Positions 36,153 to 47,621 of a DNA stretch of 64,000 nucleotides are shown here, one piece after another (the stretch's first letter is position 1; every line of letters begins with the position of its first letter). The DNA comes from Cycloclasticus sp. (GTDB lineage: Bacteria; Pseudomonadota; Gammaproteobacteria; Methylococcales; Cycloclasticaceae): positions 248,001 through 312,000 of the forward strand of contig PADC01000006.1 of NCBI GenBank assembly GCA_002700385.1, written 5' to 3'. The notes below the pieces were generated by a model. That model was not told where the DNA came from. It was given only the letters and a program-made list of their open reading frames with translations, and searched no databases. The translations under genes and the position numbers were made by a program.

Positions 36153-37910
36153 TCATTTATTAGATACAACGGCGCCCCAAGAATCAAAAAAGTACAACGG
36201 TTCACAAACTGCCTGCATAGCTGGGCTTCTCCAATCACCTAAGAGCAGCCCATGCAAGCGAAGACCTTGACTGCTTTTTAACTCATTTATTTGCTCAATG
36301 ACATGGTCTTGCATGGGAAAACGCCCATCACTGATCAGTAAAATATCTGTTTTATTCCATACTTTTTGCTTCTGTTTCCGTATTGCCTTAAGCAAAGGAG
36401 CCACCACATAGGTCCCCCCATGAAAAGAGGTTTTGAGAACCGTTAATAAATCACTTAGGTCCGCTTTAGCAAGATCTAATTCATATTCAACAACGTCGTC
36501 AGGACCTGAAAACATATACAGATAACACGGGCGTTGCTCCTTCGATGCCATAAACAGGATTTCCAGCACAAGCGACTTAGCAAGACTCTCGGGCTTTCCC
36601 TGCATAGAAGCCGATGTATCTAAACAAATAATAATGGGGCCCTTACCCATTATTTCCTGCTTCTCAGGGTTGATGTCTTCTTCACTATTAACCGCTTGTC
36701 GGCCGTTTTTGTTAAACCGTAAGCCTTGATACTGATAACAAAGGAGCTGCCTTTCTGCATAGCGAGCAAGCCATAGGGACTTTAGGGCGTGATACCCTAA
36801 TTTTGCATATTCAACCGGCAACATCCGACTGATCTCATTGCTCCTTTCCAACCCCCCTGTTTCCATAACAACTCGAGGCACACCTTGCCTCCTCCGTTTT
36901 CGTTTTTTCGACCGAACCGTGTGATCAGTGCCCTTCTCTTCAAGTGTTTCTTTTCGCCCCAGTCGACGGATGAGTGCTTTCAGTTCCGGTAGTGGTTGAA
37001 TCAGTTGTCGATAATACAGAATTTCTTGCCAATCTTGAGTTGCTAATTGTCCGCGCGTTAGATCCCATCCTCTTCCTGATAAACCAACAGAATCAGAAAA
37101 AGAACGGGAAAACTCACCCCAATGACTGATTAAATCTTGCCACTTTTTGCCTGGGTCAACCTCAATACTAGACGCTGATGTGTTTTTTTTTAATGAACTT
37201 ACGTTCTTAACCTCTCCTGGTGCCCATGCGTTTGTTTCATCCTTAGTCGGCAATAACGGGGCGGCTTTACCCTCCTCATCCAAATCGATAGAAGGCTCTG
37301 ATTTATCAAGTCTCGTGTTATCAGTTGGCGTCCGATGTTCATCTGGCGTGAAAGCATCAGAGTGTTTATCTTTAGCCAATGTATTGACCGGATTAGATCG
37401 TTCTTGTTGTTCTTGTTGTTCTTGTTGTTCTTGTTGTTCTTGTTGTTCTTGTTGTTCTTGTTGTTCTTGTTGTTCTTGTTGCTTTGAGCCCTGCGCGTCG
37501 CCATCATCCGGGTTTTTAAAATCAGATTCCCGTTCACGCTTAGTTTGCTGCTGAGTTAATTTATCAATAAAGCCATCCGGTTTTATTTTGAAATATTCTT
37601 CTGCGGTGACGACCCCTTCACAAATATCAAGCAACACTTGATCTGTTAACGCTTCTTGATCACGGCAATAACTGGCGATATTCACTGCCTCCAGCCTTTT
37701 AAGTAACGTTATTTTAATTCGATGTTCTGGCCAACACAGCGCGTCATGACGGGGAAGATCACCCTTAAGTAAGGCTTCACGCCATTGTAAAACGCCGTTC
37801 ACTCGCTCTAATAAATCACCATGCGGCAATGAAATAACGATGCTGTACAGTGAATCAGGCAATTGATCAAGAACTTGGTAACGCTGTTCAATTAACCCCA
37901 AGTCCTTCAT
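36153..37910 (-). CDS. viaA: VWA domain protein ViaA
   Basis: ViaA is the von Willebrand A partner of the MoxR-type AAA protein RavA. In E. coli the pair interacts with respiratory complexes. The 585 residues end in a VWA domain with the MIDAS motif DTSASMQG (in IICLDTSASMQGKP) and the later LLISDGRFPM segment. The middle is a low-complexity, charged linker with a perfect 9-fold (QQE) run encoded by nine 9-base units at 37401-37481. The protein is longer than the E. coli one (about 483 residues), mainly because of this linker. It follows ravA by 15 bases at the end of the nitrate operon. Confidence 0.85.
   Translation of the reverse strand: MKDLGLIEQRYQVLDQLPDSLYSIVISLPHGDLLERVNGVLQWREALLKGDLPRHDALCWPEHRIKITLLKRLEAVNIASYCRDQEALTDQVLLDICEGVVTAEEYFKIKPDGFIDKLTQQQTKRERESDFKNPDDGDAQGSKQQEQQEQQEQQEQQEQQEQQEQQEQQERSNPVNTLAKDKHSDAFTPDEHRTPTDNTRLDKSEPSIDLDEEGKAAPLLPTKDETNAWAPGEVKNVSSLKKNTSASSIEVDPGKKWQDLISHWGEFSRSFSDSVGLSGRGWDLTRGQLATQDWQEILYYRQLIQPLPELKALIRRLGRKETLEEKGTDHTVRSKKRKRRRQGVPRVVMETGGLERSNEISRMLPVEYAKLGYHALKSLWLARYAERQLLCYQYQGLRFNKNGRQAVNSEEDINPEKQEIMGKGPIIICLDTSASMQGKPESLAKSLVLEILFMASKEQRPCYLYMFSGPDDVVEYELDLAKADLSDLLTVLKTSFHGGTYVVAPLLKAIRKQKQKVWNKTDILLISDGRFPMQDHVIEQINELKSSQGLRLHGLLLGDWRSPAMQAVCEPLYFFDSWGAVVSNK
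37401..37481. repeat. Nine perfect 9-base tandem repeats inside viaA
   Basis: The unit TTCTTGTTG is repeated exactly nine times without change. On the coding strand it reads CAACAAGAA and encodes (QQE)9. Because the unit is a multiple of three, length changes keep the frame and only alter the linker. Confidence 0.95.
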
Positions 37911-37925
37911 ATCAGCCTGGTTAAT

Positions 37926-39455
37926 TTACTCATCCGTTGTGGGTAAGCTTTTGTAACGATCTAATAAACCACTCAACCGGTTCAATAAACTCTCCACCTG
38001 TTCTATCGATTTTTCCAAACTATTAGTTGCCGTTATGATAAAAGCAGGGTCTAACCAAAGGTGTTCGCCGATATCTGTCTGCAAATTGCATTGCTGAGCA
38101 ATGAGTTTTTCTTTAAATTGCTCAATATCCTGCTTTAAATGGGATAACTCACGTACTCGGCCTTCAATAAATCCGCGTTCATGTTGTTTAAATTCCATAC
38201 AAGGCGAATTAAACACTTCGGTGATCAGCACATTATCCGGATCGGCGACATATTCATCTATATGACGCCATTTACCCTTGATGTGGGTTTGTTGATAACG
38301 ATCATCAAAAAACTGTTCTAACAACTCTTTATAAGTGTAACCTTGATCAGCCAGGCGTCTATCAGCTTGGCCCGGCGGAGCTAAATACAAGGGTAAGCCG
38401 TTGCGCTCACGGCGTTGCATGAATGAGGCTTGAGCGGTCTGCTCACCAAGAGCATTCAGATACAAGGGTTGACCTTTCTCATTTAATACAGCCACTTCTG
38501 TTGTTGAATCTTTATGTAGTACCGTTTCCCAAGTCGACACTAATTTATCTAGTCGCTCAAAATTAAATCCACTGCTGCCCAAACTTAAATGCGTTTCAAA
38601 CCAATTGGCGATGATCTCCCTTTGTTCTGGCTCATCCCACAAACAATGTTGAAGTAACCAACACTCCCATACACCAACCGATTCACTTCCGTTGGTAAAA
38701 GCAGCCACTTTTAAAAGCTTTACAGCCTTACGCCAACGCCTATCAGATATATACAAAGAAATCGTTTCAGCATGCAGCCTGAAGGCCTGCAATAAATCCA
38801 TCACATCATCTGTTATTGTAATGTCGGTTATTTTTTGCTGAATGCGGTGTACTTCTTCCAGCGTCAGCTGGTCCGCTTTATCAGGTGCTTGAAAATCTTC
38901 ATCCGTTAACCTTAAAAGGTGATGAAATTGTTCAGATGAAACACTGTCAACTTGAAACCGACATAAAAAACGATCATAAAGAGCTGCCAAACCGGCCTCA
39001 TCGGGTAATTCATTACTTGCGGCAACAACTGATATGAGAGGTATCGTATAACGCTTATCGCCATTATCAAACTGGCGCTCATTTAATATGGTGAGCAACG
39101 CGTTAAGAATGGCACTGTTCGCTTTAAAAATTTCGTCAATGAACGAGATGGTGGATGAAGGGAGGTAATTTTCAGTCAACCGCCGGTACTGATCATTTTC
39201 CAATGACTTAATGGATAAGGGGCCAAACAGTTCTTCTGGAACTGAAAAACGCGTTAATAAACGCTCAAAATAATCACCCTCTTTAAAAGCCCAATGCAAT
39301 CGCTCTGCCAAGACACTTTTCGCAGTACCATGGGGACCAAGCAGCAGGCTGTTTTCACCAGCAAGCGCCGATAACACAATCAACTTTAACGGCGTTTCTC
39401 GTTCTATTAACCCTTGATTAAGTGTCTCGAGAAGGCGTTGAAGCCTTATTTTCAT
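37926..39455 (-). CDS. ravA: MoxR-family AAA ATPase RavA
   Basis: RavA is a hexameric MoxR-type ATPase that works with ViaA. The 509 residues show the Walker A GPHGTAKS (about residues 39-46), Walker B in STISFIDEIFKAN, the sensor 1 stretch VVAASNELPD, and the lid region. The C-terminal part with coiled-coil segments resembles the LARA/ATPase-associated domain of RavA. In E. coli the pair modulates respiratory complexes and Fe-S enzymes. Here it is directly downstream of the Fe-S membrane subunit of a nitrate reductase, with no gap, so it is likely a dedicated chaperone. Confidence 0.88.
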   Translation of the reverse strand: MKIRLQRLLETLNQGLIERETPLKLIVLSALAGENSLLLGPHGTAKSVLAERLHWAFKEGDYFERLLTRFSVPEELFGPLSIKSLENDQYRRLTENYLPSSTISFIDEIFKANSAILNALLTILNERQFDNGDKRYTIPLISVVAASNELPDEAGLAALYDRFLCRFQVDSVSSEQFHHLLRLTDEDFQAPDKADQLTLEEVHRIQQKITDITITDDVMDLLQAFRLHAETISLYISDRRWRKAVKLLKVAAFTNGSESVGVWECWLLQHCLWDEPEQREIIANWFETHLSLGSSGFNFERLDKLVSTWETVLHKDSTTEVAVLNEKGQPLYLNALGEQTAQASFMQRRERNGLPLYLAPPGQADRRLADQGYTYKELLEQFFDDRYQQTHIKGKWRHIDEYVADPDNVLITEVFNSPCMEFKQHERGFIEGRVRELSHLKQDIEQFKEKLIAQQCNLQTDIGEHLWLDPAFIITATNSLEKSIEQVESLLNRLSGLLDRYKSLPTTDE

Positions 39456-41339
39456 TTAGGTATTTTTCCAAATAAAAATTGACTTCAACTGCGTTTGGGC
39501 GTCTTTTAAGGACGTTTCCTTTATTGTTTTAATAAGCTCGCTCACGTTAAAGACTCGATGGGCTTCGTATTCAACACCCACTTGCGGCATTTTTGCTAAG
39601 CCAGTTTCTTTAGCATGCTCTTGGAATCCTTGATTTTTCCAGAAAAAAGCGCCGGGCATTGTAGTGGGAATAACTAAGGCAAAGAATAGCGATCGCTTGA
39701 TCACCGCGGACCCTAAATAAGCCAATAAAAGTACGACCCAAGTAAAGACACTTGGATCCAATATATTGAGAAAAGCCGCTATAATAGCAACCACTAAAAG
39801 CCCTTGGCTAATATAAAAAGGCCATGCAAACGTTGTCGTCTGTTCATACCAGGACGCCTGAGCTTCACCTTCCCCTGTCTGTAGGTAACGGGCATGAAAC
39901 AGGTGCCCTACCGTGTCAATCACTAAGCCTGCCAGTACCACAGTGGCCAGCGTTTTGAATACCGTGACAGACGGCTCTGCCACCACCAATAAAAATAGCG
40001 CAATAATTAATGCACTAAAGCTTAAGCAGGTCCCTATCAAGCTGGTGGCTGTTTGCCAGTGATCCCAATAAGGGCGAGCCTTAATACGATAAAGTTTATA
40101 CATGTAGTACAAGCCAATGGGGCCACTCATCACCCCCAGCACCGCACAAACGTTGGCGAGGAAATTAAAATCCATGCTATGGAAAAAAGTAAACCCTAAC
40201 AGGCTAGCAAAAAACAAACTAACACCCGCGATTTCACGGCTAACGGGAGAATGTCTTAAGTTATAAAATCCACGATAGAAGCGATGAGGTTTACCCAAAT
40301 GCATATTCAGTTTGTATAAACCAAATGACATGATGACTGAGAACACAACTAACAGCGGTGTTAGGTTAGTTGATGAACTAATGGTTTTAAACGCATTAAT
40401 ACCAAACAAATTGCCTAGTACAAGCAATAAAAAGCCACCAACCGCTGCTTGTGTTACCAGTGTAAAAGCAACATGAGAACTTTCATGACTTAACAACAAT
40501 TTAGCCCAGTTCCATTCCTTTTTCTGACCTTTTTTAGGGTCTAAGGCTGACTTATAAAGCCCCACTTTTTCATCTTTATGGTATTTAAGCGGCATTGAAT
40601 CGGTACGCGTCATATCACGTTTATTTTGCCGTGTTTGCTGGAAGCGGATATTCGGGTTTGTTATATCGGTACGGGGAAAGCCGGGTATCTCTGTTTTACT
40701 CTGTTCACGATTTTCAGGCACATTTTCAATAACGCCAAAATCCAAAGCATTTCCCAAACAAGCCGAAACACAAGCGGGTTTCAAGCCCACTTCCAAACGA
40801 TCAACACACATATTACATTTACTCACCTGGCCCTTAACAGGGTCAAGCTGCGGCGCGTTATAAGGACACACCCATGTGCAGTAACCACACCCGAAACAAA
40901 TATCAGGGTCTTGAAGCACGGCACCGTATTCTACATATTTAGTGTAAGCACGTGTCGGGCAACCTTTTAGGCAAACTGGATCATCACAATGGTTACAAGC
41001 CATTGAAATATTTAACCGTTGGTACGCTGGGTAGCTTCCACCTTCTACAAAACCAACTGACCGGAATGCGATATGCGCTGGGTTATCATTTTTTTCACTG
41101 CAAGCGGCTTCACATGCATGACATCCGATGCAATTATCGGCATTAAAGTAAAAACCATGTTGTTTATAACGGTTGGGGTTGTCTCCTATACTGCAATCAC
41201 CATTAATGTTGAGACTAACGCCGTGTAACTCATCACCCTCTTTCGCCAAGTCGATGGGTTTACCGTACCGATTCGTCTCCTTTGTCTCTTTATCCCACAA
41301 AAAAGCATATTTTGGTTCATCACTTCTCACATTAAACAT
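39456..41339 (-). CDS. DmsB-DmsC fusion: four-[4Fe-4S] subunit joined to quinol-oxidising membrane anchor
   Basis: The 627 residues join two proteins that are usually separate. Residues about 60-210 have four ferredoxin-type clusters: CIGCHACEAACSEKN, CNHCDDPVCLKGCP, CFGCGYCTWVCP and CNMCVDRLEVGLKPACVSACLG. Residues about 290-620 form an anchor with roughly eight membrane helices of the DmsC/YnfH type. DmsC-like anchors oxidise menaquinol or ubiquinol and pass electrons through DmsB to a molybdenum subunit. Lying between the nitrate reductase catalytic gene and ravA, it is the likely electron donor of that reductase. Confidence 0.85.
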   Translation of the reverse strand: MFNVRSDEPKYAFLWDKETKETNRYGKPIDLAKEGDELHGVSLNINGDCSIGDNPNRYKQHGFYFNADNCIGCHACEAACSEKNDNPAHIAFRSVGFVEGGSYPAYQRLNISMACNHCDDPVCLKGCPTRAYTKYVEYGAVLQDPDICFGCGYCTWVCPYNAPQLDPVKGQVSKCNMCVDRLEVGLKPACVSACLGNALDFGVIENVPENREQSKTEIPGFPRTDITNPNIRFQQTRQNKRDMTRTDSMPLKYHKDEKVGLYKSALDPKKGQKKEWNWAKLLLSHESSHVAFTLVTQAAVGGFLLLVLGNLFGINAFKTISSSTNLTPLLVVFSVIMSFGLYKLNMHLGKPHRFYRGFYNLRHSPVSREIAGVSLFFASLLGFTFFHSMDFNFLANVCAVLGVMSGPIGLYYMYKLYRIKARPYWDHWQTATSLIGTCLSFSALIIALFLLVVAEPSVTVFKTLATVVLAGLVIDTVGHLFHARYLQTGEGEAQASWYEQTTTFAWPFYISQGLLVVAIIAAFLNILDPSVFTWVVLLLAYLGSAVIKRSLFFALVIPTTMPGAFFWKNQGFQEHAKETGLAKMPQVGVEYEAHRVFNVSELIKTIKETSLKDAQTQLKSIFIWKNT

Positions 41340-41353
41340 AACTTAGGTACCCA

Positions 41354-43558
41354 TTAAAAATTACGCATTTCTTTACTTAATTGTGCAGCCTCTTGCTGAT
41401 TAGCTAAAACCTCTATTCGAATAGCAGACTGCTTATAGGCTGGCTGACGTGAATGTGGGTCTAGCAAACCCAGTGTCAATCGATTAACACAATCAAAGAA
41501 ATGGAATGGAATAAACACCATATTTCGAGGCACGCGTTGCGTTAACATGGCCATCACCACTGCATCGCCACGACGAGAAACGCAGCGAACATATTCACCT
41601 TGAGTGATGCCCATCTCACGGGCAGCATCTGGGTTAATTTCCATGAAAGGGATAGGGCTATATTTGTTTGTATTACCCAATTTACCTGTTTTCGTACGCG
41701 TATGAAAATGCTCAACTAAGCGGCCGGTATTGAGCCAAAAAGGGTATTTTTCATCCGGAACTTCATTATTATCTATAAAGGGAAGCGGGATTAATTTTGC
41801 CATTCCATCTGCATGACGAAAGGTACCATTTTCCGTATACAAACGTTTGCCTCCTTTGGGTGGCTCTTCGCCATTAACCGCTTGTTCTTCTGTATAAGGC
41901 CATTGAATACCTCGCTTTTGTTCTATCAAATCATGGTTCATTCCTGAAATATCAACCAAACGGCCTTTGGATAACACTTTCATTTCTTCAAAAGCCTCTG
42001 CTGGTTTATCTGGGAAATTCATTTTTTCACTTCCGGCAAAATGCTTTGCGATTAAATTAAAAATATCAAAATCGGACTTTGAATCGCCAGGCGCATCGGC
42101 TGCTTTGCGAACAATATTGACTCGTCGCTCTGTGTTGGTAAATACCCCTTCTTTTTCCGCCCATGTGGCCGCAGGAAGATACAGATGTGCGTATTGCGTT
42201 GTTTCTACATCGGCATAACTGTCTTGCACCACAAGAAAATCCAGCTTTTCAAGTATTTTACGAGTCCGTTCTGTGTTTGGCATCGACGTCATTGGATTCG
42301 TAGCAATAAGCCATAACCCTTTTATTTGCCCCGTTTCGATGGCTGGAAAAATATCAGTTTGCGCTAATCCTCGTTTTTTTGGGAAAAACTCAGGGTCTAC
42401 ATTCCAAAATTTGCCGATTTCTTCACGGTCCTTTGCGTTTTCAAGTGCACGGTAACCCGGTAATCCGGAACAAGAAGACCATTCACGGGTTCCCATGGCA
42501 TTGCATTGCCCGGTAATCGATAAGCTTGTTCCCCCTTCTTTACCAATATTGCCCGTTATTAAATTTAGATTATTAATACCGACTACACCATCGGAGCCAT
42601 GTGTACTTTGATTAATACCCATTGTCCAAATACTCATTGCCGAATCAGCCTTGGCATAGAGTCGCGCCACATTTCTTATCGTGTCTTCATCAATACCACA
42701 AATAGCCGATGCAGTTGTTGGATCATACTTCTGCACTTCCATTTCTAACTGTTCTAGACCAACAGTATTGGCGTCAATATATTCTCTATCTTCTAACCCT
42801 TCATTCAAAATCACGTACATCAGGGCATTTTGAAGGACAACATCTGTACCGGGTGTTATCGCTAAGTGTATGTCTGCCTTTTGCGCCAACATCGTCACGC
42901 GTGGATCGACAACAATCAGAGGGAAATCGCGTTGTTCCCGTGCTTCTTGTAAACGCCAATAAATAATAGGATGCTGTTCCGGTAGATTAGATCCCCAGGC
43001 CATGAGGCATTCCGTATGCTCAAAGTCTTCATAACACCCCGGGGGGCCATCCGAACCAAATGATCTTTTATAGCCCGATACGGCGGATGCCATACAAAGC
43101 GTTGTATTGCCGTCGTAATTATTTGTTCCAATCACACCCCGTGTTAGCTTGCCTAAGGTGTAAAACTCTTCTGTTAATAATTGGCCTGTTGATACAACTG
43201 CAAATGAATCTCTGCCGTGGGTTTCTTGAATCCGCCTGATTTCACCCACCATGGTACTAGCCGCTTCATCCCAGGTGATTTCGGAATATCCTTCGTGAAT
43301 TGATTGACGTATTAAAGGTTTATCCCCACGGCCTGATGATGAAAATAATTCGTGCTCAAAAATCCCTTTTACGCACAATTTACCCCGATTAACATCTGCA
43401 CCACCAACACCTCTTGAGCCAACCACTTTGCCTTCTGCATCTGTTCCAATCTCAATTGAGCAGCCCACTGAACAGTAGCCACAAGTCGCATAAGTCCACT
43501 TTTCATTTTTTTTATCGACCATTTTGATCGCATTTTTCTTGTCACGCCCAAATAGCAT
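41354..43558 (-). CDS. Nitrate reductase catalytic subunit (Nas/Nap-like molybdopterin oxidoreductase)
   Basis: The 734 residues are a Mo-bis-MGD oxidoreductase. The N-terminal [4Fe-4S] cluster motif is TCGYCSVGCS with a fourth Cys in GKLCVKG (about residues 25-65). The Mo ligand Cys lies in NTTLCMASAV. Later MGD-binding segments include MSIWTMGINQSTHG, GLWLIATNPMTSMPN and the C-terminal FHFFDCVNRLT. There is no Tat signal, so it should be cytoplasmic, like assimilatory Nas enzymes. It follows nirD and precedes the DmsBC fusion. Whether it is assimilatory or respiratory is inferred: nirBD beside it and nitrogen-type promoter signals favour assimilation. Confidence 0.88.
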   Translation of the reverse strand: MLFGRDKKNAIKMVDKKNEKWTYATCGYCSVGCSIEIGTDAEGKVVGSRGVGGADVNRGKLCVKGIFEHELFSSSGRGDKPLIRQSIHEGYSEITWDEAASTMVGEIRRIQETHGRDSFAVVSTGQLLTEEFYTLGKLTRGVIGTNNYDGNTTLCMASAVSGYKRSFGSDGPPGCYEDFEHTECLMAWGSNLPEQHPIIYWRLQEAREQRDFPLIVVDPRVTMLAQKADIHLAITPGTDVVLQNALMYVILNEGLEDREYIDANTVGLEQLEMEVQKYDPTTASAICGIDEDTIRNVARLYAKADSAMSIWTMGINQSTHGSDGVVGINNLNLITGNIGKEGGTSLSITGQCNAMGTREWSSCSGLPGYRALENAKDREEIGKFWNVDPEFFPKKRGLAQTDIFPAIETGQIKGLWLIATNPMTSMPNTERTRKILEKLDFLVVQDSYADVETTQYAHLYLPAATWAEKEGVFTNTERRVNIVRKAADAPGDSKSDFDIFNLIAKHFAGSEKMNFPDKPAEAFEEMKVLSKGRLVDISGMNHDLIEQKRGIQWPYTEEQAVNGEEPPKGGKRLYTENGTFRHADGMAKLIPLPFIDNNEVPDEKYPFWLNTGRLVEHFHTRTKTGKLGNTNKYSPIPFMEINPDAAREMGITQGEYVRCVSRRGDAVVMAMLTQRVPRNMVFIPFHFFDCVNRLTLGLLDPHSRQPAYKQSAIRIEVLANQQEAAQLSKEMRNF

Positions 43559-43617
43559 ACCGATCTCTCACTTAATTGATCATCAATTTTTTTTTGCTCA
43601 CTAACACCGGGTCGACG

Positions 43618-43977
43618 CTACGCGCAAGGATCCATAACAACGACTCGGCCCTGTACTATTTTCGTTGGATACACTGCAATAGAGACCTTCTCATCCTCTA
43701 CACATTGCCCTGTGACCAGGTTGAAATGTTGTTTATAGATGGGGGATGCCACGACGAGCTGTTCTCCAAGGCTCCCTATAATGCCTCTTGATAGGACATT
43801 CGCCTCGCTAAAAGGATCGTAGTTGCTGATTGCCAAAACCTGATCCAGTTTTTTTATATAAAACAACGCAATCTGCATATCATTAACGAGGGCTGCAGTG
43901 CCAGCATCTTCAATAATATCTGTAAGGGCACAAACATCGACCTCGCCGCTCAGCTCATTTACCATTTGTGTCTTCAT
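43618..43977 (-). CDS. nirD: Nitrite reductase (NADH) small subunit
   Basis: The 119 residues have the Rieske-like fold of NirD, with AALVNDMQIALFYIKKLDQVLAISNYDPFSEANVLSRGIIGSLGEQLVVASPIYKQHF and a C-terminal IVQGRVVVM strand. NirD lacks the Rieske cysteine-histidine ligands, as here. It follows nirB by 14 bases. With NirB it forms the cytoplasmic NADH-dependent nitrite reductase that makes ammonium. Confidence 0.95.
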   Translation of the reverse strand: MKTQMVNELSGEVDVCALTDIIEDAGTAALVNDMQIALFYIKKLDQVLAISNYDPFSEANVLSRGIIGSLGEQLVVASPIYKQHFNLVTGQCVEDEKVSIAVYPTKIVQGRVVVMDPCA

Positions 43978-43991
43978 CTGTTTGTTATGAC

Positions 43992-46520
43992 CTAATTAAG
44001 TTTTGCTAAAATTTCTTCTTTATTGGCTGGACGTAATTGACCTCGTTCAGGAACAAAAACAATTTGACTATCCCCTTTATCTGAATTGACAAACGCCTTA
44101 AACGACTTTGATCTCTCTTCGTTTTCAACGGTTGTTTTCCATTCACATTGATAGTTATCAACAACGGTTTGCATTTCTTTTTCAAAGGTGTCTGCCAAAC
44201 CCAGAGAATCATCAATCACCACGTCTCTTAAATAATCAACACCGCCTTCTAAATTCATCATCCAGGTTGATGTTCGTTGTAAACGGTCTGCTGTTTTTAC
44301 ATAAAACATCAAGAAGCGGTCGATGTATTTAACCAATGTTTCATAGTCAAGATCTGTCGCAAATAAATCGGCATGCCTTGGTTTCATGCCACCATTACCA
44401 CAAAGGTATAAATTCCAGCCATTTTCAGTAGCAATAACGCCGACATCTTTACTTTGTGCTTCTGCACACTCTCGAGTACAACCAGAAACAGCAAATTTAA
44501 TTTTATGTGGCGCTCGCAATCCTTTATAACGGTTTTCTAAATTAATGGCCGCCGTGACACTGTCATCCACACCGTAACGGCACCATGTGCTGCCGACACA
44601 GGATTTAACCGTCCTCAACGCCTTTCCATACGCATGGCCTGTCTCAAAACCCGCATCAATCAATTCTTTCCAAATAACGGGTAACATCTCTTTTTTCGCG
44701 CCAAACAAATCAACCCGCTGACCGCCTGTAATTTTGGTATAAAGCTGATGTTTTTTCGCCACCTCACCTATGGCAATTAACTTTTCGGGTGTAATTTCTC
44801 CACCTGGAATACGAGGAACGACCGAATAGGTGCCATTTTTTTGAATGTTCGCAAGAAAACGGTCATTCGTGTCTTGCAAGCCAACATGTGGTTTTTCCAG
44901 CACATAATCATTCCAACAAGAAGCCAAAATAGAGCCAATAGCGGGCTTACAGAGATCGCAACCATACCCTTTGCCGTACTTTTCCAACATTTCATCAAAC
45001 GTTTTAATCTCATTAACACGAATGAGGTTGTATAAATCTTGGCGTGTATAAGCAAAATGTTCACACAAATCAGTGTTTACATCCATGCCCAGTTTTTCTA
45101 GTTCTTTATTTAACACTTGCCCTACCAACGCTGTACAGCCACCACAACCTGTTGTTGCACTTGTGCATTCTTTGAGCGCTGCCATTGTTGTGGCACCGTC
45201 CGCTACAGCTTGGCAAAGCGCCCCTTTTGAAACGTCATAACAAGAACAGATTTGCGCCGTATCTGGTAAGGCTTCAACACCAAGCCCAGTTGAACCTGAG
45301 CCATCACGTTGTGGCAAAATTAACGAATCAGGGTGCTCGGGCAGGGCAATATCGTTGAGTTTCATTTGAAGCAGATTACCGTAATCTACCGCATCGCCGA
45401 TCAGCACAGCCCCTAGCAAATGTTTTTTATCTTCACTGACAACTATTTTTTTGTAGACTTCGTCAGAGCCGTTAACGTACGTATAAACTTTTGAATTTTC
45501 TGTCACGGCATGTGCATCACCGATACTCGCAACATCAACGCCCATTAGTTTCAACTTCGTACTCATATCTGCACCGGTAAAGCTGTTTTCTTTTGCCGAC
45601 AATTGGTCAGCAACAACTTGCGCCATTTGATAGCCCGGTGCCACTAAACCAAATATTTTTCCATCCCATAGAGCACACTCACCAATCGCATAAATGTCTT
45701 CATCGGATGTTTGGCAATGGTCATTAATGACCACACCACCGCGTTCGCCGAGTGTTAAACCGCAATCACGAGCGATATCATCTCGTGGTCGAATGCCTGC
45801 AGAAAATAAAATCACATCTGTTTCAATGAACGTACCATCAGCAAAGTTCATACGGTGAAGACATTGCTCACCATCAACAATCGCTTGTGTATTTTTTTGC
45901 GTATGAACACTGACTCCCAAATCTTCAATTTTCTTACGAAGGACCTCACCCGCTCCATCATCAATTTGAACTGCCATTAAGCGGGGTGCAAATTCAACCA
46001 CATGCGTTTTTAATCCAAGGTCTTTTAAGGCTTTAGCTGCTTCTAAACCAAGCAAGCCTCCACCGATAACCACGCCAACTTTTGATTTTTCGCCCGCTTT
46101 TTTTATATCAATCAGGTCATCAATTGTTCGATACACAAAACAATTCTCTCGCTCATGACCGGGTATGGGCGGAACGAACGGAAAAGAGCCTGTTGCTAAA
46201 ACCAGCTTGTCGTAAGGAATGCTCTGCCCATTATTCGAAAGAACCTTTTTTGCTTCGCGGTCAATGCTGGAGGCGCGATCACCCACATGAACAGTGATAT
46301 TATTTTTCTCAAAAAAACCGGGTTCTACTAAAGATAAATCCTCTTCAGATTGACCACTAAAATACGATGACAATTGAACACGATCGTAGGCAAGTCGCGT
46401 CTCCTCACAAAACGTCGTCACCTCATAGTCTTGTAGCGCTTCATTGTTCACCATAGATTGGAGAAATTTATGCCCAACCATGCCATTGCCAATAACAACT
46501 AATTTTTTTTTGTCACTCAT
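43992..46520 (-). CDS. nirB: Nitrite reductase (NADH) large subunit
   Basis: The 842 residues have an N-terminal FAD/NAD-binding oxidoreductase domain (GNGMVGHKFLQ; IGGGLLGLEAAKAL), a BFD-type [2Fe-2S] domain (CSCYDVSKGALCQAV, CTSATTGCGGC), and a C-terminal sirohaem/[4Fe-4S] sulfite-nitrite reductase half-repeat with CVGSTWCRYG and the cluster motif GCTRECAEAQ. It reduces nitrite to ammonium with NADH. It is the first gene of the unit that also carries nirD, the nitrate reductase, the DmsBC fusion, ravA and viaA. Transcription probably starts at the sigma-54 promoter immediately upstream. Confidence 0.97.
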   Translation of the reverse strand: MSDKKKLVVIGNGMVGHKFLQSMVNNEALQDYEVTTFCEETRLAYDRVQLSSYFSGQSEEDLSLVEPGFFEKNNITVHVGDRASSIDREAKKVLSNNGQSIPYDKLVLATGSFPFVPPIPGHERENCFVYRTIDDLIDIKKAGEKSKVGVVIGGGLLGLEAAKALKDLGLKTHVVEFAPRLMAVQIDDGAGEVLRKKIEDLGVSVHTQKNTQAIVDGEQCLHRMNFADGTFIETDVILFSAGIRPRDDIARDCGLTLGERGGVVINDHCQTSDEDIYAIGECALWDGKIFGLVAPGYQMAQVVADQLSAKENSFTGADMSTKLKLMGVDVASIGDAHAVTENSKVYTYVNGSDEVYKKIVVSEDKKHLLGAVLIGDAVDYGNLLQMKLNDIALPEHPDSLILPQRDGSGSTGLGVEALPDTAQICSCYDVSKGALCQAVADGATTMAALKECTSATTGCGGCTALVGQVLNKELEKLGMDVNTDLCEHFAYTRQDLYNLIRVNEIKTFDEMLEKYGKGYGCDLCKPAIGSILASCWNDYVLEKPHVGLQDTNDRFLANIQKNGTYSVVPRIPGGEITPEKLIAIGEVAKKHQLYTKITGGQRVDLFGAKKEMLPVIWKELIDAGFETGHAYGKALRTVKSCVGSTWCRYGVDDSVTAAINLENRYKGLRAPHKIKFAVSGCTRECAEAQSKDVGVIATENGWNLYLCGNGGMKPRHADLFATDLDYETLVKYIDRFLMFYVKTADRLQRTSTWMMNLEGGVDYLRDVVIDDSLGLADTFEKEMQTVVDNYQCEWKTTVENEERSKSFKAFVNSDKGDSQIVFVPERGQLRPANKEEILAKLN

Positions 46521-46561
46521 CTTGTTTTTTTCAACGAAATTGATCTTATTAAGGCTGCCAA

Positions 46562-46577
46562 AGCACTTTGTATGCCA
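46562..46577 (-). promoter_or_regulatory. Sigma-54 (-24/-12) promoter of the nirB operon
   Basis: Read on the minus strand, TGGCATACAAAGTGCT has the invariant GG-N10-GC spacing and matches the consensus TGGCACRNNNNTTGCW at most positions. The start site would be near 46551, about 30 bases before the nirB ATG. This implies RpoN-dependent transcription. Confidence 0.7.
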
Positions 46578-46659
46578 ATCTTTTTTATAAAACTAACGTA
46601 CTGATATGTAAGCCAATAATTTATATTATTAAAAAGAACGATCATCATCACGGCCCTTC

Positions 46660-46707
46660 TGCATTATTCCGGTGCGCTGCAGGCATTAACTGTTATAAAT
46701 TGGTGCA
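46660..46707. promoter_or_regulatory. Two NtrC-like binding sites
   Basis: Site 1 (46660-46676) has TGCA, a 7-base gap and GGTGC, close to the NtrC dyad. Site 2 (46691-46707) has a perfect right half TTGGTGCA and a weak left half. Their centres are 31 bases apart, three helical turns, and lie about 117 and 148 bases upstream of the predicted start site, similar to the paired enhancer sites of glnA. Confidence 0.55.
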
Positions 46708-46946
46708 TAATTTCGTGTGCAACTAAATTGACTCAAAGAATCTCAATATAAAATGAGTAGTCTCTTAGCAGGGCGGCTGACCCTTGAATTATTCCCCGAA
46801 GATTGATCTAAAACATGTAAAAAGAAAATAAAACGGCCTATGATTTAAAAAAGCAGGGAGCCAAAATCTGCCTAAGATGTCTTTTAAAAAAATACCGGGC
46901 AGCATCACAGGGTGCCTGCAATGAATACTAACTGGAGAACCTCTCA

Positions 46947-47621
46947 ATGAACTCACTCATCGCTGCCTGCCTTTTATTCCTTGGAATGCACTGGATTGTG
47001 TCTGGCAGTCCTCTACGTGGTTATATCGTAAAGTATGTTGATGAAACCTTATTTAAGGTTTTATTTTCCCTCATTATTTTTGCTTCATTAACGTGGATGG
47101 CCTTGGCTTTCTCAACAGCCCCCTACATCCCTACATGGGGAACTGCAGAGAACCTTAAGCCGGTCAGCCTTGTTCTGATGTTTATTTCATTCTTGCTACT
47201 CTCCATGAGTATCTTTGACAAAAACCCTACCCTAATGGGGCTTGTTCCGCCGGATCAAGTCACCCCACGGGGTATCGTACGCATAACTCGACATGCTGGA
47301 CTCATCGGCCTTGGCTTATGGGGTTTAGCTCATTTTATCGTTAATGGTGACTGGGCTTCGCATCTGTTATTTGGCACCATCGCATTCGAAGGCCTTGTTG
47401 CCCCCATGAATCTAGATCGAAAGTACCGTGCTCGTTATGGTAAATCATGGAATCACTTCACCGCCCAAACTTCATATATCCCTTTTGCAGCCATTATTGC
47501 CGGACGGAATACACTCAAACTAAATGAACTTAATCTATGGGGCGCACTGATCGGTTTAGGTCTATTTATTGCCAGCCTGTATTACCACTCTACTTGGTTT
47601 GGCGTTTATCCACTGCCATAA
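46947..47621 (+). CDS. NnrU family membrane protein
   Basis: The 224 residues form a membrane protein with about six helices and the NnrU family features GMHWIVSGSPLRGYI, TPRGIVRITRHAGLIGLGLWGLAHFIVNGD and ENLKP. NnrU is linked to nitric-oxide metabolism in denitrifiers, and the family is related to NnrU/MddA-like isoprenylcysteine methyltransferases. The function here is unknown. It diverges from nirB and shares the regulatory region, so coordinated expression with nitrogen metabolism is possible. Confidence 0.8.
   Translation: MNSLIAACLLFLGMHWIVSGSPLRGYIVKYVDETLFKVLFSLIIFASLTWMALAFSTAPYIPTWGTAENLKPVSLVLMFISFLLLSMSIFDKNPTLMGLVPPDQVTPRGIVRITRHAGLIGLGLWGLAHFIVNGDWASHLLFGTIAFEGLVAPMNLDRKYRARYGKSWNHFTAQTSYIPFAAIIAGRNTLKLNELNLWGALIGLGLFIASLYYHSTWFGVYPLP

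Follow-up and report, generated by a model that had tools for sequence, protein, structure and literature searches.

What is a RavA-ViaA-type protein pair doing at the end of a nitrate operon? The question is raised by a 64,000-nucleotide stretch from Cycloclasticus sp., a marine oil-degrading bacterium (contig PADC01000006.1, positions 248,001 to 312,000; hereafter the window), in which six genes on the minus strand follow one another in the order nirB-nirD-nitrate reductase-dmsBC fusion-ravA-viaA. An initial annotation of this DNA had described this order, with small gaps and with ravA abutting dmsBC, and both features hold to the base: the gaps are, in gene order, 14, 59, 14, 0 and 15 bp, the dmsBC-ravA junction reads ...ACC TAA ATG AAA... 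with the ravA start codon immediately after the dmsBC stop, and at the following junction (...GAG TAA attaaccaggctgat ATG...) viaA starts 15 bp beyond ravA. The pair looks as if it were expressed from the same operon as the membrane-linked nitrate reductase, and the recurrence of the pairing in many other bacteria suggests a dedicated helper for this enzyme. Judged from sequence, the window pair belongs to a distinct and recurrent RavA-ViaA-like branch whose linkage to nitrate reductase (NR) is nearly exclusive and whose presence is optional.

Linkage of the RavA branch to nitrate reductase and DmsBC

The linkage was surveyed in three overlapping samples of 121 genomes of the order, 369 of the class and 18 of the genus, with the genome of the window itself common to the order and class samples. 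A RavA homologue, counted at E<1e-150, was found in 8 genomes of the order sample, the remainder among the matches listed being generic MoxR proteins at 22-28% identity. Full-length DmsBC occurs in 26 of these genomes, the same 26 that carry the NR (E<=1e-140), and 21 further DmsBC matches cover the Fe-S part only. All eight ravA genes lie downstream of dmsBC. The class sample contains 19 genomes with a RavA match at E<=1e-30 and 60 with DmsBC; ten of the RavA matches are full-length and all ten are encoded downstream of dmsBC, with the NR beside nine of them and the contig of the tenth (G306) ending in dmsBC. In eight other RavA-matching genomes the match is confined to part of the query, and DmsBC of this type is absent. 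RavA was found in five and DmsBC in 15 genomes of the genus, again with 5/5 ravA genes downstream of dmsBC. The hypergeometric probability of the association, calculated with kinship ignored, is 1.7e-6 in the order and 6.6e-9 in the class sample. No second copy of this RavA branch was present elsewhere among the matches listed in the genomes of the three samples, so that ravA-viaA located elsewhere in close relatives, which the initial annotation had named as evidence against a dedicated pair, was not encountered.

After exclusion of eight duplicate records, 30 distinct loci containing both dmsBC and ravA could be compared, their start codons being chosen by script. The two genes are co-directional with ravA downstream in all 30, overlap in 12, and overlap or lie within 20 bp in 18; viaA comes next in 27. 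The NR is seen in 28 loci, the other two stretches beginning in or just before dmsBC. The arrangement is found in Cycloclasticus, in metagenome-assembled genomes (MAGs) of Methylococcaceae and in Candidatus Marithrix, and also in MAGs named Cellvibrionales, Pseudomonadales and Chromatiales. Such a survey of co-occurrence had been proposed in the initial annotation, and its outcome upholds the claim that the pair is dedicated to the NR. Because RavA follows NR-DmsBC even where the stretch shows no labelled nirBD (e.g. L165 and L166), its partner in the linkage is NR-DmsBC, and nitrite reductase was rejected in that role on this ground. The recurrence across the order and class samples likewise led us to reject a plain operon accident. 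A RavA profile scan of named loci, of which the best 80 of at least 236 were analyzed, gave DmsBC adjoining RavA in 21 of the 31 closest loci. DmsBC was present in none of the stretches fetched for the 49 more distant loci, four of which have less than 1.2 kb upstream, and a ViaA match accompanies RavA in 48 of these 49.

Trees and distances were compared for the same proteins. On a RavA tree of 85 rows, 29 of them NR-adjacent (after removal of fragments, duplicates and rows that were fused or of odd length), the label 'NR-adjacent' requires 2 changes versus a shuffled mean of 24.4. Several deep forks of this tree are weak, and the nitrate-linked RavAs appear to come close to a single origin, apart from one move into a neighbourhood of peptidase-U32-type genes. 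RavA presence on a DmsBC tree of 61 rows (30 with RavA, and 13 of the 50 pair-free class genomes used) requires 10 changes versus 20.7 in shuffles, and ravA seems to have been repeatedly lost or gained along this tree. With kinship again ignored, RavA pairwise distances track those of NR (rho 0.79, 27 loci), DmsBC (0.70, 27 loci) and ViaA (0.81, 22 loci). We regard the dedication of this RavA branch to NR-DmsBC as well supported by these comparisons.

The window operon and its enzyme

The operon begins with the large and small subunit genes of an NADH nitrite reductase, nirB (43992..46520, minus strand, 842 aa; TIGR02374, 1141.5 bits, cut-off 578) and nirD (43618..43977, minus strand, 119 aa; TIGR02378, 105 bits, cut-off 75; PF13806). 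The next gene (41354..43558, minus strand, 734 aa; PF04879, PF00384, PF01568) encodes a catalytic subunit of the cytoplasmic NapA/NasA type, whose whole-protein scores alone would not separate NR from formate dehydrogenase: the protein stays below the NCBIfam equivalog cut-offs (Fdh-alpha 561 of 666 bits, NasC 504 of 1100), and the top two Protein Data Bank (PDB) matches are formate dehydrogenases. The active-site sequence LCMASAVSGY, however, aligns with LCMASAVGGY of the periplasmic nitrate reductase 2jim, and the position of LCM is taken by ICH or LCH (Cys-His) in the two formate dehydrogenases compared; we assume that Cys-Met versus Cys-His at the molybdenum-ligand motif separates the two kinds of enzyme. 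Both the PF04879 N-terminal 4Fe-4S domain and Cys-Met at this motif are present in the window subunit, and a twin-arginine motif is absent from its first 40 residues. Because one other PF00384 match only occurs in the genome, the window molybdoenzyme is its likeliest NR. The dmsBC fusion (39456..41339, minus strand, 627 aa) joins a ferredoxin-type Fe-S domain (PF13247, residues 112-203) to a DmsC-type membrane anchor (PF04976, residues 285-555), with Cys motifs at residues 70, 115 and 148 and peaks of hydrophobicity within 290-553. We read the whole as a quinol-linked, cytoplasmic nitrate-to-ammonium operon. No description of a quinol-linked cytoplasmic NR with the NR-DmsBC architecture was found among the titles and abstract openings listed from the open-licence PMC literature, and no paper was found there that places RavA-ViaA in a nitrate operon.

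The operon is flanked by a divergent NnrU family gene (46947-47621) on one side and a convergent gene for a BarA-like hybrid kinase on the other. By gene coordinates, the intergenic region between nirB and the NnrU gene (46521..46946) is the natural site for the operon promoter. Many relatives have NarK at the place of the NnrU gene; a close NarK was not found in the window genome (best match 19 bits), and a strong PF13379 (NrtA-type) protein is encoded elsewhere in it. Most order relatives with nirBD show the order nirB-nirD-PhzF-family gene-NR-dmsBC, frequently accompanied by genes for NarK and a PP2C/Ser-Thr kinase that diverge from nirB. The PhzF-family gene, which is not in the window operon, lies between nirD and NR in such relatives (e.g. 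L077, 5235-6149) and after viaA in L138 and L139. Another insertion is a 123-aa gene between dmsBC and ravA in L145 (10538-10909) and L146 (10692-11063); in L145 its product resembles DsrC, a protein of sulfur-relay type that one would not expect within a nitrate operon.

The RavA-like and ViaA-like proteins

The window RavA-like protein (37926..39455, minus strand, 509 aa) has a MoxR AAA+ core with AAA_lid_8, scoring 193 bits with PF20030, 83 with PF07728 and 71 with PF17868. Residues G40, G43, K46, S47, D107, E108 and N148, which we take to be those of the Walker A/B and sensor motifs, are invariant across 40 aligned members. RavA is its best-scoring NCBIfam profile, though at 282 bits it remains below the cut-off of 681 (Escherichia coli RavA itself scores 993). 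Identity to E. coli RavA is 45.8% over window residues 4-282, with no significant match further on. Neither LARA (PF20265) nor RavA_C (PF12592) matched any of the 40 members, the window protein included, at E<=0.001, whereas the E. coli control matched them at 135 and 83 bits. An AlphaFold2 model of the window protein (predicted local distance difference test, pLDDT, 89.9) places a strand-containing domain at residues 320-422 between long helices, and its best PDB match is E. coli RavA 3nbx (Z 41.4, 364 residues, root-mean-square deviation 3.3). A strand-containing domain between long helices, like the layout in the model, is described for E. coli RavA (PMC10585395; this and the papers below are cited from excerpts). 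The window protein thus looks like a RavA-type architecture with a strongly diverged third domain, and residues 320-422 might hold a diverged LARA equivalent.

The ViaA-like protein (36153..37910, minus strand, 585 aa) is modelled with a helical N-domain (residues ~1-128), a low-confidence linker, a middle region and a VWA domain (~423-580), as delimited by block-wise pLDDT. Overall pLDDT is 67.9, on which ground a fully folded protein was rejected; the N-domain, the VWA domain and a few helices are the usable parts, and the 50 listed PDB matches are mostly VWA-type domains. PF05762 (27.8 bits) and PF13519 (28.4 bits) exceed their cut-offs, and the metal-ion-dependent adhesion site (MIDAS) residues D431, S433, S435, T500 and D528 are invariant in 29 aligned members. 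The NCBIfam ViaA profile (NF008230) gives 178 bits over residues 273-576 with a cut-off of 500, compared to 879 for E. coli ViaA. Window residues 258-577 align with E. coli ViaA 160-471 at 29.7% identity. In E. coli the middle domain (192-311) activates RavA and the VWA part spans 312-483 (PMC10585395), so the homologous segment covers the RavA-activating domain and most of the VWA part. No significant sequence alignment was obtained before E. coli residue 160 (the VAN construct being 1-191), and the first 128 window residues are helical without a sequence match. The E. coli lipid-binding tail uses arginines R476 and R479 in a basic C-terminal helix (PMC9489729); this tail is unmatched, the alignment ending at E. 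coli residue 471 with eight window residues past 577. The linker contains a QEQ run at about residues 145-168, encoded by a perfect tandem repeat of 9 bp x 9.1 (37400..37481, minus strand; Tandem Repeats Finder, 100% matches). In three other Cycloclasticus genomes (G013, G031 and G053) the contig breaks off within viaA, and because of this the repeat length may vary among strains.

The name RavA-ViaA, which the initial annotation had used for the pair, therefore stands at the level of the family and fails for the E. coli type. We describe the two proteins as RavA/ViaA-like family-level relatives rather than orthologues of E. coli RavA-ViaA, and as a separate branch of the family by their sequences. 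The genomic setting differs as well, since E. coli ravA-viaA lies between asnA and kup and not in a nitrate operon. Other relatives are free-standing: in six marine gammaproteobacterial loci (L190, L192, L193, L194, L196 and L203) a third gene, encoding 177-192 aa, comes after RavA-ViaA, and together they look like a three-gene AAA+/VWA/HEPN set. Their RavA homologue is 40-43% identical to that of the window and their ViaA is homologous too; they differ by the extra third gene and by having no NR-DmsBC in the fetched stretch. The three L192 proteins have no PADLOC match.

Proposed function and competing explanations

We lean, with reserve, towards a client-dedicated MoxR AAA+/VWA pair that would help to mature or maintain the quinol-linked cytoplasmic NR in the style of NorQ-NorD. 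The role in maturation or insertion of a molybdenum NR proposed by the initial annotation is plausible on this basis. The likeliest client would be DmsBC, the Fe-S/membrane subunit, or the step in which it docks with the catalytic subunit, given that every locus with both genes has ravA downstream of dmsBC and that the two overlap in 12 of the 30. A hexameric MoxR ring would couple to the VWA protein, which would hold the client with its MIDAS face and anchor it through its N-domain and flexible linker; with ATP turnover the client would then be remodelled, allowing its cofactors or its membrane assembly to be completed or repaired. Such a pair would be an accessory which lineages can lose and which improves yield or robustness in some situation. 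CbbQ-CbbO and CoxD-CoxE are other MoxR/VWA pairs encoded with their client. In the NorQ-NorD model, a VWA finger inserts into the AAA+ pore, and its authors propose that ATP turnover stretches or twists the linker between the NorD N-domain and VWA domain, opening the client for metal insertion (PMC13036017). The window pair resembles NorQ-NorD in being encoded beside its presumed client, and the modelled ViaA-like protein seems to share with NorD the plan of N-domain, long flexible linker and VWA domain. It differs in that its AAA+ protein scores best with the RavA profile and its presumed client is an Fe-S/molybdenum NR. Furthermore, NorQD is essential for iron insertion into nitric oxide reductase (PMC9976466), whereas the window-type pair is optional among relatives. 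By analogy, the nearest precedent for a machine dedicated to a molybdenum enzyme would be CoxD, a MoxR ATPase serving CO dehydrogenase (PMC11278965); in the available parts of that paper and of PMC11237726, RavA and ViaA are named solely in the reference lists. E. coli RavA-ViaA itself contacts Nuo and fumarate reductase (Frd) subunits and is genetically linked to Fe-S assembly and to nap-ccm (PMC3893208, PMC10585395). A bolder proposal, which we offer tentatively, is that this MoxR/VWA machine acts on the Fe-S/membrane subunit, or on the molybdenum site, to load or repair it by pulling on the low-complexity, repeat-variable linker of the VWA protein, and that, with some free-standing relatives carrying a HEPN gene instead, one engine might serve both maturation and conflict.

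Several observations weigh against a helper dedicated to the NR. The pair is missing from most genomes that have DmsBC (18 of 26 in the order, 50 of 60 in the class and 10 of 15 in the genus samples). Because of this, it cannot be a general requirement for the NR; its optional occurrence argues against strict dependence of the client, and we see in it a condition-specific helper or quality-control device rather than an obligatory maturase. No ravA-viaA remnant was detected after dmsBC in the 18 pair-free order genomes (matches at E 2.4-7.3 only; contig ends lie within 3 kb of dmsBC in four of the 18, and within 1.3 kb in three of these), so that decay of the pair in these relatives was rejected, and among the matches listed no RavA of this branch is encoded elsewhere in these assemblies. 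In pair-free G023, 0.8 kb takes the place of ravA-viaA, and the same BarA, ABC_sub_bind and TonB genes as in the window come next after dmsBC. DmsBC alignment columns separate pair-bearing from pair-free members poorly: over 58 rows, with 3 omitted, the best column reached a mutual information of 0.34, and the highest value in 40 shuffles was 0.29. A special DmsBC sequence requiring the pair was rejected since no column separates the groups well. Replacement of a NarJ/TorD chaperone by the pair was also rejected, the pattern of PF02613 showing no clear substitution: this family is absent from 17 of the 18 genus genomes, the window's included, whether pair-bearing or not, and its sole carrier, G023, has a second NR-like protein and no pair.

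Certain loci also depart from the common arrangement. L172, L173 and L178 have a nitrate-branch RavA without viaA or NR beside it, behind two peptidase-U32-type genes (assigned by Pfam in L172 and by cluster in the others) that are presumably UbiU/UbiV of oxygen-independent ubiquinone synthesis. Three of the five Beggiatoa-type loci in the nitrate branch (L176, L177, L179, L181 and L186, two of them with less than 1 kb upstream) have no DmsBC upstream, and L180 and L183 begin at the edge of a contig. L140 and L141 show RavA overlapping dmsBC with two methyltransferase-like genes and no adjacent viaA behind it, and the wider-gap loci L081, L145 and L146 have another predicted gene between dmsBC and ravA. 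In G391 a contig opens with a RavA fragment followed by viaA, and the assembly yielded no DmsBC; this is either a non-fitting case or an assembly gap. As to transcription, a separating promoter and terminator had been named by the initial annotation as evidence against its proposal. A consensus scan (14 promoter-like sites versus 22.3 expected, and 14 terminator-like sites versus 10.3) placed none in the gaps between dmsBC, ravA and viaA, but within the 3' part of dmsBC it detected promoter-like sites (39839-39781) and terminator-like sites (39758-39735 and 39705-39688) on the minus strand, and a promoter driving ravA-viaA apart from the operon might lie there. The neglect of kinship in the hypergeometric and distance tests, the absence of gentamicin sensitization by E. 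coli RavA-ViaA under nitrate respiration (PMC9973319) and the dispute over its effect on Frd activity (PMC10585395) count on the same side.

These points give room to other explanations. The pair could be a post-translational regulator that holds down or releases the NR rather than a maturation factor. The optional presence would suit a regulator better than an assembly factor, and E. coli RavA-ViaA is reported by its authors to lower Frd activity in vitro via a ViaA-FrdA contact (PMC10585395); that very effect is disputed, however, and the best-known client-encoded MoxR/VWA pairs, NorQD and CbbQO, activate their client (PMC13036017), so that we hold a regulator to be rather unlikely. We also think it unlikely that the pair, like E. 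coli RavA-ViaA, serves a general membrane or stress function and merely rides as the last part of a mobile nitrate cassette. Distant RavA does occur in several phyla with no cassette in view (49 of 49 loci among the best 80, 48 of them with viaA), and the DmsBC tree groups rows of different orders closely, hinting at transfer; yet the branch is nearly confined, in many families, to one place behind one gene, and the part of E. coli ViaA that carries the lipid-binding arginines has no counterpart in the window protein.

Capture of a conflict module (defence or stress-response) by the operon appears highly unlikely. MoxR-vWA conflict systems have been proposed (PMC7159879), the third gene of the six free-standing relatives (in Motiliproteus, Aliivibrio, Marinobacterium, Shewanella, Marinomonas and Vibrio) forms one cluster and is RiboL-PSP-HEPN (PF18735) in all three tested, and the Thiomargarita pair (L176) sits beside an MkoA-like helicase and a PLD/DrmC-like protein in a defence-like neighbourhood. 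The HEPN-cluster gene is nevertheless not labelled beside the nitrate-linked pairs of the named loci (neighbours in the order and class loci being partly identified), and neither window protein matches PADLOC-DB, for which reason a defence system was rejected.

The preferred reading of a dedicated MoxR/VWA helper bears on a wider problem, as the client of RavA-ViaA in E. coli is unsettled among lysine decarboxylase, Nuo, Frd, lipids and aminoglycoside uptake. Here evolution points to one client, the RavA branch being tied to the single enzyme pair NR-DmsBC. The finding draws attention to a quinol-linked cytoplasmic nitrate reductase, and the occurrence of pair-bearing and pair-free versions within one genus offers a clean comparative system for the contribution of such a pair to an Fe-S membrane oxidoreductase.

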